A stretch of DNA of 64,000 nt, from NCBI GenBank assembly GCA_018826295.1, contig JAHJZX010000008.1, forward strand, positions 1 to 64,000, written 5' to 3'. The notes under the pieces were generated by a model. It worked only from the letters and a program-made list of their open reading frames with translations, did not search any database and had not been told where the DNA came from. Positions within the stretch are counted from its first letter, which is position 1; every line of letters starts with the position of its first letter. Made by a program: the position numbers and the translations under genes. Below, in pieces: positions 2,961 to 7,350 of this stretch. The stretch is from Gammaproteobacteria bacterium. GTDB taxonomy: Bacteria; Pseudomonadota; Gammaproteobacteria; Enterobacterales; Alteromonadaceae.

Positions 2961-3881
2961 TCAGTTCTTTGCTGACAGCTCCAAAAAACTGATAGAAGGC
3001 GCGAAAAATGCTGCCGTTAATTCTATCCGGTGGTAATTAAGTAGCAAATCATGGCCGCGGCTGTCAGCAGACATACCGCATCGATAGCTTAGCTGGCGAT
3101 GCAATGCCTGCGCTGAGGCGGCGTAAGCCAATTGTATCAAACCTTGCTGTTTTACCTGATAACTTGGCATATTTTGCATTAGAACCTCAGGCGCATTCAG
3201 ATCCGGCTGCATCATCAGCCGGTGACTATCCGGTAATATCCTATTTTCTTCCAGCGGCCGGGCACTGACTTTGTCGTAGCCCATAATATCTTCCTGCTCG
3301 GCTAAACTAAGCTGATGCCAACTGACGTGATCAAACACCAACTGTTGCAGGTACATATAACTACCACCGGCAAACACCGGCTGTTCAGTTGCATCAATCA
3401 GACTTACCTGTCTGCGGTTACGTGCCTTAGGGTTCCAGGGTACATCAATAAAGCCGGTCAGGTTTCTACCATCCAGATAGCGGCAACCTTGCAGCTGATC
3501 CTGTATCTCAACGTGGCTGTCCAGCATTTGCAGCACCTGCTGGCAGCTAATAATATTGACGTCTAACCGGTCCGAGCGGATTTGGATCAGAATATCCACC
3601 GGTACCGCGGCTAACTCTATATCTGCAGCTGACAGTTCAGGCAACATGCTTAAGCCAACGGGCCGGGCGCCCGGATATAGCAAATCCCAATAGTTGCTAC
3701 CAATTGCCACGACTCCGCTAAGCTGTGCTTCGGAAAAATGTTCAGCCAAACGGTCAAATAATAGCGGCAAACGTGCCAGTTTACTGCGTAGTAATCGCTC
3801 ATGCCCCTCGTGCGCATTCAGCAACAAATAACTGCCATGCAAATTCGCTTCAGCGCAAACACCCAATTGTTCCCGGGCCAT
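2961..3881 (-). CDS. Dyp-type peroxidase family protein, degenerate (YfeX-like)
   Basis: The 306 residues follow YfeX-type dye-decolorising peroxidases along their length: VVAIGSNYWDLL, DILIQIRSDRLDVN, DLQ-to-GFID block, AGGSYMYLQQ, DSHR and AAFFAPS. The proximal haem histidine seems kept (DSHR, about residue 216) and the distal aspartate is kept in GFIDVPWNP. The usual GFVDGTENP motif is altered, with the glycine after Asp replaced by valine. The distal arginine of the VRQSLPYG block appears to be methionine (VLMQNMPSY). Family membership is clear; peroxidase activity is doubtful. Tail to tail with argR, 8 bp apart. Confidence 0.8.
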   Translation of the reverse strand: MAREQLGVCAEANLHGSYLLLNAHEGHERLLRSKLARLPLLFDRLAEHFSEAQLSGVVAIGSNYWDLLYPGARPVGLSMLPELSAADIELAAVPVDILIQIRSDRLDVNIISCQQVLQMLDSHVEIQDQLQGCRYLDGRNLTGFIDVPWNPKARNRRQVSLIDATEQPVFAGGSYMYLQQLVFDHVSWHQLSLAEQEDIMGYDKVSARPLEENRILPDSHRLMMQPDLNAPEVLMQNMPSYQVKQQGLIQLAYAASAQALHRQLSYRCGMSADSRGHDLLLNYHRIELTAAFFAPSISFLELSAKN

Positions 3882-3947
3882 ATTCTTCCTTTTACTCCGT
3901 TCTGCTACAGCGGCAGTAAGATAATGCTCCGTTTGAGCTGCTTCAGT

Positions 3948-3965
3948 TGTGAGATATATCTCACA
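3948..3965. promoter_or_regulatory. GacA/UvrY-type upstream activating palindrome for csrB
   Basis: TGTGAGATATATCTCACA is a perfect 18-bp palindrome of the form known for GacA/UvrY response-regulator boxes (TGTAAG...CTTACA type). Its centre is about 185 bp before the proposed start of the CsrB-like RNA. In enterobacteria the UvrY site of csrB is also far upstream. The function is inferred from sequence form and position. Confidence 0.72.
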
Positions 3966-4120
3966 AACAAGTAAGTTTAAACGCTATTTGTGCGTTGCAC
4001 TACAACACAAAATAATCAGTAACCATTTGATAATATACACAATTAACGAGACTTTCGTCGCTTTACAATAATATTACACCAGGCTTTTTTCGTAAAAGCC
4101 ATGCCGCATTCAGATAACTC

Positions 4121-4130
4121 AGTACATAAT
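4121..4130 (+). promoter_or_regulatory. Probable -10 region of the csrB-like RNA
   Basis: AGTACATAAT contains CATAAT, close to TATAAT, and lies about 10 bases before the first hairpin of the RNA. No good -35 hexamer stands out, which fits an activator-dependent promoter. The exact start is not determined. Confidence 0.4.
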
Positions 4131-4140
4131 TACCTTGTCG

Positions 4141-4464
4141 GCACAAAGACGCTCTGACAGGAAAGCAGAGCACAACGCAGGATGCGGTGCAAGCTAGGAT
4201 AGCACAAGGACGATGGCACGACACGTTCAGGATGAACAGCAGGAAACTGTCACTTCACAGGCGCTGAAGTATATAGGGAAGTAGTAAGGAACCTCACAGG
4301 ATGTGAGCGCGTTGTCAGGACGACAATGCAAAGGAACTCAGGACAGGCCAGGACGCCTTTAGGAACACTCCGGGATGGAGCCAGGGATGAAAAGCGACGG
4401 ATAGCTTCGACAGGATGACGAAACAGGACCTTAGGTGGCCGCGCAGTTTGCGGCCTACCTTCTT
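4141..4464 (+). ncRNA. csrB: CsrB-type regulatory RNA that sequesters CsrA
   Basis: A 680-bp gap holds serial short hairpins showing GGA in the loop. AGGA occurs about 15 times (for example 4159, 4179, 4196, 4207, 4229, 4241, 4287, 4298, 4317, 4332, 4340, 4350, 4361, 4412, 4425). The CsrB heptamer CAGGATG is exact at 4178, 4228, 4297 and 4411. Clear stem-loops include GTTC-AGGAT-GAAC, CTCA-CAGGATG-TGAG and TTGTC-AGGA-CGACAA. The 3' end is a GC-rich hairpin (4433-4460, one bulge) followed by TCTT. Length near 325 nt fits CsrB. Its role would be to titrate the translational regulator CsrA under Gac/Bar-Uvr control. Reverse-strand reading frames here are chance. Confidence 0.88.
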
Positions 4465-4563
4465 CCCCCCACAGCCTTTGCTGTTCATTAACGGTTATCC
4501 GTGCATCAATTTTCAATTGCCGCTACACTAGGTTCGAGTTGTTCAGAAGGAGCCTGATCTATT

Positions 4564-7350
4564 ATGCGTTGCCTCGGAAAAGATGCGCTTTACTTCATTT
4601 GTTTATTTGCTCCGGCAGTGAGCTTAGCCGGCCCCAACGAAGATTTTGAAAAGGCGATTCAGGCATTTAATCAAACTGAAGCCAATGCTGCTTACATTCA
4701 CCTGAAAAATGTTCTGCAACAAGCGCCAGAGCATATCCCAGCCAAAGTTCTGATGGGCAAAGTACTGCTAAACAAAGGCTATTTCAACGAAGCGATCACC
4801 GAATTCGAAGAGGCATTGGACAACAACGCCGACATAGCGTCGATGCTTGAAGAGTTAGCCACCGCCTATTTATTCGCCGGTAAAAATGAACAAGTGCTTA
4901 GCTTGGGGCAACGTTACCAATTAGCACCAGCGCAACGCTTTGACTGGCATCTGTTATCGGCAGCTGCACAATTGAATATGGGTAATATTGACGCTGCTGA
5001 AGCCCAGTACACCGCAGCCAGTAAACTGCAAAGTGAATCTCTGCGTCTGCTGAACAGCAAAGCCGCACTTCGTTTAAAACAGCGCAATTACGACGAAGCC
5101 AATGATTTAATTACACAGGCGCTAAATATTGATGCCGCTAATCCGCAGAGCCTGCAATTGCGGGCAGAATGGTTACAACTAAACGGCAACGCCGCCGCTG
5201 CTCAGCAATTTTATGAACAAGCCACTGAGCTAAGCCCACAAGATCCCTTGCTGCGCCGGGCACTATTGCGCAACTATGTCAGCCAGCAAAAACTTGATTT
5301 AGCTGAGCAGACCATTCAGCATATCCTGCAATTTACACCTGATGATCCTTACGCACTGTTGCTCGCAGCCTGGTTGTCGGCCATCAAACCGCAAGCCGCT
5401 GCCGCAGAAAATAGCGGCAAGCAACTAAGCGATTTACTGTGGAAAATGTCACGGCAACAGATAGAAGCTCAACCTTCCCGGCTCTATAGTCGCGCGCTGC
5501 TGTCCTATGTAGAAGGCAGCTATGAAAAGGCCCGCAGTGACCTGCATGCCTATTTACCGTTAGCACCAGCCGATTTAAACGCTGTGGCGATTTTGGCGCG
5601 GATCTACATGCGGCAAAATGATGTTAATGCCGCCATACAGCTGCTAGAACAACATCTGAGCCACCTCAACGCCATGCCTGAGCTGGCGCAGTTGTTAACC
5701 ACATTGTACATAACGACTAATAAAACCAATAAAGCAGAACAACTTATCGCCTCTTTACGCCTGCAGTATCCTGACAATGCTGAGTTTGCTGTATTGCATG
5801 CTGCGGTACTGAAAAAACTGACGCAAAACCCACAGGCACAACAACTGATTAAGCAGTTTGAGCAGCAACATGGGGCCTCTTTACTTATTACCACTAACCA
5901 GGCTTTATTTGCGCTGGAAAGTGGCGACTTTGATACTGCATTGACTCTAGCCAATCAACTGCTGCAACAGGCACCGCAAAACAGTGGCTATCTTAACTTC
6001 AAAGCAGCGGTACTAATAAAGCTGCAACAAGCAGACGCCGCCAAAGTGCTGTTGCAACAGATACTGCAACAGGAGCCCGGTCATTTGGCTGCACAGTTCA
6101 ATCTGGCACAGATAGCACTATCTGAACAAAATAATGAAAACGCTATTGCACTGCTGGAACCGGTAGTGAAGGCAAACCAAAGCTACAAACCGGCACCGAC
6201 CTTACTGGCATTGGCCTACATCAGAAGTGGACGCCTATCAGACGCCGAAACACTACTGTTAGATACCACAGCTGTAGTACCGTACCCGCCAGCTGACAGC
6301 ATGTTATTTGACCTGTATATGCAACAACAAAAATACCAGGACGCTTTATCTATAGTTGATAAGGGCCTGGAGCGTAAATTTTTGCACGAACCCTTGCTGT
6401 GGAAAAAAGCCCAGTTGTTAAAACTGCTATCGCGCAATGACGAAGCCATTTATCAGACCGAATTACTGCAAAGCTTGGTGCAGGATGACGCAGATAAGCT
6501 GCTGCGCCTGGCGTTACTGCAACGTGAACTGGGAAACAGCAGCGCTTCCGAGCAAAGTTTACTTGCCGCGCAGCAAAGCAATGCAAAATCCAGACTTATT
6601 CAGTTAGAGCTGGTGAATCATTACCTGTTAACCGAGCAACCACTACAGGCTGAAAAATGGTTACGCCGGCTGCAGCCTTATGCCGCAACAGATGCCAATA
6701 TTACTATGTTAAGCGCTGATCTGGCGCTGCTAAACAAAGATACCAACAAGGCAGTGTTATTGTTTAAGCAAGCTTTACGGCTCGATCCGGCTTTCCAACT
6801 GGTGTGGGTAAAGCTGTATCAATTGGCCAAAAACGGTGTTGACGCCAAGGGTTTCAGCTTGCTGGCGCAAGACAACTTAAGAGAAAACAAGGATTTTAAC
6901 TGGCTACGCCGGCTTCTGGCCGAGCATTTTGTCAATCAGCAACAAGCTACGGAAGCGATACAGCAGTATGAAATTCTGTTAGCGGCAGGTGCTTATACCG
7001 ATGATGTTGCTGTACACAATAACCTGGCGAATCTGTACCTGCCAACCGATGCTAAAACAGCGCTTAGTTATGCAGAAACAGCAGTTAAGCTTGCGCCGAA
7101 GCATGCTGCTGCATTGGACACCTATGGCTGGATCCTGACTAAAACCGGTAGCTATCAACAAGCGCTGGCGGTACTACGCCAGGCAAATACACTGGATGCA
7201 GCAGAGCCGGCAACCCGTTTTCACCTGGCCTACACGCTGGCGCAGTTGCAGCGCAAAGATGAAGCGAAAACCATACTGCGGCAACTGCTTGCTGATACAG
7301 CAACCTTCAGCGAAAAAAATGCTGCCGAGGCACTATTGCAGCAACTTTAA
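4564..7350 (+). CDS. Large periplasmic/secreted TPR-repeat protein, PrsT type
   Basis: A 928-residue protein with an N-terminal signal peptide (hydrophobic YFICLFAPAVSLAG, cleavage about residue 23) followed almost wholly by tetratricopeptide repeats. Examples are AYIHLKNVLQQAPEHIPAKV near residue 42 and the last repeats AALDTYGWILTKTG and FHLAYTLAQL near 845-895. Length, signal and opening segment match the TPR protein PrsT associated with PEP-CTERM/exosortase systems. No exosortase or PEP-CTERM protein is in the window, so the role is open. The AGAAGGAG ribosome-binding site ends about 12 bases before the ATG. It begins about 100 bp after the csrB-like RNA and is probably transcribed separately. 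Confidence 0.8.
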   Translation: MRCLGKDALYFICLFAPAVSLAGPNEDFEKAIQAFNQTEANAAYIHLKNVLQQAPEHIPAKVLMGKVLLNKGYFNEAITEFEEALDNNADIASMLEELATAYLFAGKNEQVLSLGQRYQLAPAQRFDWHLLSAAAQLNMGNIDAAEAQYTAASKLQSESLRLLNSKAALRLKQRNYDEANDLITQALNIDAANPQSLQLRAEWLQLNGNAAAAQQFYEQATELSPQDPLLRRALLRNYVSQQKLDLAEQTIQHILQFTPDDPYALLLAAWLSAIKPQAAAAENSGKQLSDLLWKMSRQQIEAQPSRLYSRALLSYVEGSYEKARSDLHAYLPLAPADLNAVAILARIYMRQNDVNAAIQLLEQHLSHLNAMPELAQLLTTLYITTNKTNKAEQLIASLRLQYPDNAEFAVLHAAVLKKLTQNPQAQQLIKQFEQQHGASLLITTNQALFALESGDFDTALTLANQLLQQAPQNSGYLNFKAAVLIKLQQADAAKVLLQQILQQEPGHLAAQFNLAQIALSEQNNENAIALLEPVVKANQSYKPAPTLLALAYIRSGRLSDAETLLLDTTAVVPYPPADSMLFDLYMQQQKYQDALSIVDKGLERKFLHEPLLWKKAQLLKLLSRNDEAIYQTELLQSLVQDDADKLLRLALLQRELGNSSASEQSLLAAQQSNAKSRLIQLELVNHYLLTEQPLQAEKWLRRLQPYAATDANITMLSADLALLNKDTNKAVLLFKQALRLDPAFQLVWVKLYQLAKNGVDAKGFSLLAQDNLRENKDFNWLRRLLAEHFVNQQQATEAIQQYEILLAAGAYTDDVAVHNNLANLYLPTDAKTALSYAETAVKLAPKHAAALDTYGWILTKTGSYQQALAVLRQANTLDAAEPATRFHLAYTLAQLQRKDEAKTILRQLLADTATFSEKNAAEALLQQL

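Follow-up and report, generated by a model that had tools for sequence, protein, structure and literature searches.

Introduction

The amount of free CsrA, which is described as regulating metabolism and lifestyle globally (PMC11882849), is set by CsrB-type RNAs. CsrB of Escherichia coli (Rfam family RF00018), encoded at yqcC-syd, is a GGA-rich array of hairpins, and the account of its control region in PMC4682653 places the UvrY box TGTGAGAGATCTCTTACA with its centre at −183/−182, a putative IHF site between this box and the promoter, and a second, promoter-proximal site to which UvrY crosslinks. A second RNA of the same functional class, CsrC (RF00084), is encoded in the order spf-yihA (engB)-csrC-yihI. 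The two RNAs described for Shewanella oneidensis, CsrB1 and CsrB2, are AGGA-rich, have a UvrY/GacA box upstream and depend on BarA/UvrY for their expression; their predicted lengths are 420 and 421 nt, and they share one locus, with a transposase gene between them (PMC3171408). In Pseudoalteromonas fuliginea, Pf1, Pf2 and Pf3 carry 25, 21 and 9 GGA triplets, respectively; EMSA shows CsrA binding for Pf2 and Pf3, and the authors report no significant match of Pf1 and Pf2 beyond Pseudoalteromonas (PMC11882849). In the literature searched, we found no work on CsrB or Csr RNAs of Rheinheimera.

Here we describe a predicted CsrB-type, CsrA-sequestering small RNA on the plus strand (4137..4465) of a 64,000-nucleotide stretch of gammaproteobacterial DNA, the whole of which is referred to below as the window. 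With both of its ends predicted, the RNA is ~329 nt long and has 20 GGA triplets, against 369 nt and 22 GGA for E. coli CsrB, which it resembles in being a GGA-rich hairpin array, in starting with GTCG and in having an 18-nt UvrY palindrome almost equally far from its start. It differs from E. coli CsrB in its neighbors, lying beside dyp and argR rather than at yqcC-syd, and in its score far below the Rfam cut-off, its weak U-tract and its lack of excess global folding stability. The S. oneidensis RNAs are likewise AGGA-rich with an upstream UvrY/GacA box, whereas the window locus has one copy, of ~329 nt. Pf1, Pf2 and Pf3 are also GGA-rich Csr RNAs. E. coli CsrC belongs to the same functional class as the window RNA but is encoded at another locus.

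GGA motifs and gene context

The gap that contains the RNA (3882-4563) lies between a minus-strand gene for a Dyp-type peroxidase and a gene for a 928-amino-acid TPR protein (4564-7350), which scores over the cut-off of the NCBIfam PrsT model (XrtA/PEP-CTERM; 342 versus 312 bits). The argR and mdh genes are on the far side of dyp, away from the gap. It is the 3′ half of the gap, 4141-4464, that is packed with GGA on the plus strand. The first-pass annotation had put the number of AGGA motifs there at about 15 and that of CAGGATG heptamers at four, and both figures were correct: exact counts on the plus strand gave 15 AGGA, 20 GGA, 10 CAGGA and 4 CAGGATG, and no AGGA was found on the reverse strand of 4141-4464. 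In 2000 dinucleotide-preserving shuffles of this stretch, the mean was 3.5 for AGGA (maximum, 9), 10.2 for GGA (maximum, 18) and 0.05 for CAGGATG (maximum, 1), and the observed counts of these three motifs were attained in none of them. The runner-up 324-nt stretch in the window outside the locus held 5 AGGA on the plus strand and 3 on the minus strand.

Among the trinucleotides present at least three times in the window RNA, GGA is the best conserved, its occurrences being retained in a mean of 10.65 of 14 relatives, compared with 6.3 over all such trinucleotides. The individual triplets range widely, however. Two of the 20 (at 4242 and 4333) are present in none of the 14 relatives, and a further five (at 4180, 4208, 4288, 4351 and 4362) are retained in just 5 to 8 of them.

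Promoter and upstream control region

A predicted −10 hexamer, CATAAT, is located at 4125..4130 on the plus strand, and CATAAT, GATAAT or CATACT occupies the same position in all 30 of the genus loci compared. Because of this position and the conserved 5′ end of the RNA, which is mostly GTCAACGGA in the aligned loci and GTCGGCAC in the window, we placed the start of the RNA at ~4137. No good match to a −35 element was found upstream of CATAAT in the window, which is consistent with an activator-dependent promoter. A generic promoter scan returned two weak sites (1.2 expected by chance), and the conserved −10 hexamer was not among them.

Farther upstream, at 3948..3965 on the plus strand, is the UvrY/GacA binding box TGTGAGATATATCTCACA, a perfect 18-nt palindrome with its centre at about −180 from the predicted start, for which 0.01 occurrences would be expected by chance in the window. 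Measured from the predicted start, the box centre falls between −178 and −180 in 29 of the 30 genus loci, a count that includes L033, whose one-base variant was added to the pattern; the remaining locus, L041, has none. The box is part of the same unit as the RNA gene, and the boundary is corrected to that effect: the start of the extent first proposed (4141-4464) has moved to ~4137, and the upstream box has been added.

Between the box and the promoter, as in E. coli csrB, there is a possible IHF site, TATCAAATGGTTA, at 4020..4032 on the minus strand. It is suggestive only. The IHF consensus pattern that we applied matches 7 times in the window against 2.8 expected and reaches at least 7 matches in 4 of 100 shuffles. 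With a looser pattern, an IHF-like site was seen at −116/−117 in 11 of the 30 genus loci, so the site is loosely conserved. Nearer the promoter lies a conserved upstream element, TTTACAATAATATTACA (4062..4078, plus strand; about −75 to −59 of the predicted start), in which two TTACA half-sites are about one helical turn apart. In 25 of the 30 genus loci, the corresponding TTACAA...TATTAC pattern occurs between −80 and −65. This element is perhaps a second UvrY contact.

Secondary structure and terminator

In the minimum-energy fold of 4137-4465, hairpin loops hold 9 of the 20 GGA triplets; the same test on E. coli CsrB gave 9 of 22. The unpaired fraction was 0.69 for G residues within GGA and 0.27 for the other G residues of the window RNA, the values for E. 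coli CsrB being 0.81 and 0.28. The energy of the whole-RNA fold was not exceptional in comparison with shuffles (z of −0.36 and −0.53 in two runs, against −4.24 for E. coli CsrB), and global fold energy thus speaks against the label "strongly folded RNA."

Comparative evidence for the structure is clearer than that from fold energy. We analyzed 15 of the 30 genus sequences, of ~325 to 333 nt; 13 longer ones and two without a recognized terminator were dropped, and the genus genome G006 was never included. The RNAalifold structure of these 15 sequences has 74 pairs, 22 of them with two-sided changes, compared with 5.8 in shuffles, and none of 500 shuffles gave as high a number, although the structure was derived from the very alignment tested, which favors it. 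Over the same 15 sequences, 97.3% of the cells were paired in this structure, against 33 to 52% when the partners were slid. The loop-presenting hairpins proposed at the outset accord with the minimum-energy fold, with its 9 triplets in hairpin loops, and with covariation of the hairpins.

The RNA is predicted to end in a terminator-like stem-loop with a weak U-tract at 4432..4465 on the plus strand. Its stem, GGCCGC/GCGGCC at 4437-4455, lies within a longer stem that forms helix 13 of the covariation structure, in which 99.4% of the cells are paired over the 15 sequences and 8 of the 11 pairs are invariant. A terminator-like stem had been claimed for this position, and the stem is indeed present and conserved, but its U-tract (ACCTTCTTCCCC) is poor and a consensus terminator scan of 3850-4620 found no terminator.

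Rfam matches and distribution among genomes

At gathering cut-offs, a search of the entire window with 4227 Rfam families returned no match. In E-value mode, RF00018 matched 4274-4467 with 38.7 bits, against a gathering score of 71, and E = 4.7e-9 for a stretch of 751 bases. The Infernal search that had been proposed as a check thus fails at the curated cut-off and succeeds by E-value, for the genome-wide value is E = 6.8e-9; the only other match of the model up to E = 10 has E = 0.63 and covers only its last part. RF00084 had no match up to E = 10 at the window locus or at the second RNA described below. Matches of RF00018 and RF00084 at C6:33834-33868 and of RF00084 at C61:15096 were dropped, as they are confined to the final portion of the models.

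Over 60 genomes, that of the window included, RF00018 matched in 45 at E ≤ 0.001 and exceeded its cut-off in 9; among 14 control genomes, only E. coli had a match at this E-value. Exactly one match was found in 30 of the 31 genus genomes (that of the window and 29 of its 30 relatives), and none of these reached 71 bits, the best being 50.1. The genus genome without a match, G006, was found by inspection to have the box, promoter and RNA as well, which brings the RNA to 31 of 31; G006 and the rest were searched with stricter filters. Outside the genus, RF00018 matched in 2 of 5 genomes from other genera of the family and in 13 of 24 from other families of the order. A pattern of 23 bases taken from the RNA matched 20 named genome records, 11 of Rheinheimera, 8 of Arsukibacterium and 1 of an unclassified gammaproteobacterial MAG, and the genus of comparison is the Rheinheimera/Arsukibacterium group.

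Six of the 30 genus loci (L026, L028, L033, L038, L041 and L045) carry a longer RNA with a different arrangement, 435 to 532 nt between its predicted ends. As judged from such predictions, CsrB length and GGA layout vary within the genus. Elsewhere in the order, one genome (G043, locus L008) has five clustered CsrB matches and another (G036, locus L010) has six, some of them overlapping. CsrB copy number varies strongly within the order.

The genome of the window encodes one CsrA over the cut-off, a UvrY that is 62% identical to that of E. coli and is followed, as in E. coli, by uvrC and pgsA, and a full-length BarA adjoining rlmD. In a search for CsrD, the best match in this genome was partial, with 26% identity, and was one of 35 GGDEF/EAL-type matches.

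A second Csr-like RNA at engB-yihI

The genome has another copy of the same 18-nt UvrY box at C40:95425-95442. Downstream of it lie 307 nt with 9 GGA triplets (L062:2111-2417), closed by a terminator whose U-tract is good. The order of the locus is engB-cytochrome c-[second RNA]-methyltransferase-yihI, with the cytochrome c and methyltransferase genes assigned by Pfam and with engB and YihI 66% and 33% identical, respectively, to their E. coli counterparts. A Spot 42-like RNA lies on the far side of engB (L062:67-186; 60.7 bits, cut-off 80) and is likely another subthreshold small RNA. The second RNA therefore lies between engB and yihI, as E. coli csrC does, and engB has a Spot 42-like RNA on its other side, but two additional genes separate engB from yihI at this locus.

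All 18 of the relatives' loci that were fetched, which had been chosen by box similarity with 13 other box places left out, share these four genes and have 7 to 9 GGA triplets and a box centre at −175.5 to −177.5 of the predicted start. DNA comparison finds the second RNA in all 31 genus genomes (only part of it in some); outside the genus, 2 of 29 genomes gave a short match of 32 to 37 bases. In an alignment of 17 of 19 sequences (L122 and L123 were excluded), 11 of 39 pairs showed two-sided changes, compared with 5.3 in shuffles, and one of the five measures of pair change (further pair types) was not above shuffles (101 of 500). Both RF00018 and RF00084 miss the second RNA, and a full Rfam E-value scan of its locus returned no Csr family at E ≤ 0.5. 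Because these models miss it, its possible orthology to E. coli csrC is argued from position and type. The first-pass annotation had cast the window RNA as a main titrator of CsrA; it is predicted to be a titrator, but the genome has a second UvrY-boxed, Csr-like RNA, and we therefore describe it as one of at least two.

Other candidate boxes were rejected. A third perfect box of the form TGTRAG-N6-CTYACA (C48:60955-60972; L063) has no GGA cluster after it and lies inside a 513-amino-acid ORF with an MCP signalling domain. A box of another type in genome G013 (L135) is accompanied neither by the genes nor by a GGA cluster (2 GGA in 450 nt). Eleven one-mismatch boxes in the genome, viewed in 3-kb loci, have no GGA cluster (at most 3 AGGA per 300 nt). 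Since the one-mismatch pattern is no commoner than chance would give (14 sites, and likewise 14 for a reversed control), such sites were not counted as boxes.

Discussion

The window RNA almost certainly has a gene of its own, activated by UvrY, and belongs to the CsrB/RsmZ kind of small RNA, with its transcription and its binding by UvrY and CsrA predicted from the features described above. Sequence, covariation, promoter architecture, gene complement and conservation all bear out the CsrB-type reading given to this stretch from the start. The mechanism is a known one and the RNA is a new member of the class, falling below the curated RF00018 threshold throughout the genus.

The TPR (PrsT-like) gene might instead have the RNA as a long 5′ leader on which CsrA acts in cis, as the two are on the same strand and the TPR start codon is ~100 nt 3′ of the stem. 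This is very unlikely. The TPR gene is preceded by the stem-loop terminator candidate, and a relative of it was detected in only 5 of the 29 genus loci fetched by means of the RNA (29 of the 30 relatives). The next of the window's genes to be detected was instead that for methylglyoxal synthase, on the opposite strand, in 8 of the 29 loci, and in 16 neither was found in the ~3 kb fetched. Relatives of mdh, argR and dyp, by comparison, flank the RNA in all 29. With a TPR relative detected in so few loci, the RNA is retained independently of the TPR gene. The weak folding energy of the whole RNA and the poor U-tract of its terminator-like stem could also be taken as signs of a decayed CsrB relic whose function has passed to the second RNA. 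We give that idea a very slim chance, since covariation, invariant GGA columns, and a box and −10 hexamer at fixed spacing across the genus all run counter to decay, and the supposed replacement is the poorer in GGA, with 9 triplets against 20.

That the stretch is a protein-coding gene, for example, the 88-amino-acid reverse-strand ORF at 4250-4516, has a negligible probability. The first-pass annotation had anticipated that a false reverse-strand gene might be called here, and this ORF exists; at E ≤ 1 it matches nothing in Pfam. In the relatives, too, the reverse strand has stop-free runs, of 35 to 109 codons, as would be expected opposite a GGA-rich strand, but the longest of them varies threefold in length over the first 330 nt of the 30 genus loci, with frames unaligned, and the pattern of change follows the RNA pairs. 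The lack of a Pfam match to the listed ORF and the varying stop-free lengths, which were compared without codon-level alignment, mark the stretch as noncoding.

For the small RNA gene that we favor, expression, CsrA binding and phenotype would be those expected from E. coli, Shewanella (PMC3171408) and Pseudoalteromonas (PMC11882849). The BarA kinase would give rise to phosphorylated UvrY, which would occupy the 18-bp palindrome at −180 and switch on the weak promoter, possibly helped by IHF-induced DNA bending. The ~329-nt RNA would then offer its many GGA triplets, several of them in hairpin loops, to CsrA dimers, and the CsrA so bound would be withdrawn from its mRNA targets. By analogy with other species, the outputs may include motility, biofilm formation and carbon storage.

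On balance, it seems probable that the Rheinheimera/Arsukibacterium group has a complete two-RNA Csr system that is invisible to cut-off-based annotation. Such a system would consist of a fast-evolving CsrB (~324 to 532 nt by predicted ends) in a lineage-specific place and of the second RNA at spf-engB-yihI, a positional and possibly true csrC orthologue missed by both models. If so, the csrC locus would be older than the split of the two lineages, and a UvrY-box scan of the genome would have found what covariance models missed. As none of the 31 genus genomes reaches the Rfam cut-off, annotation by cut-off leaves the Csr switch blank. The conserved pairs of box and RNA offer a direct handle on the Csr system of Rheinheimera/Arsukibacterium and a basis for widening the family model.
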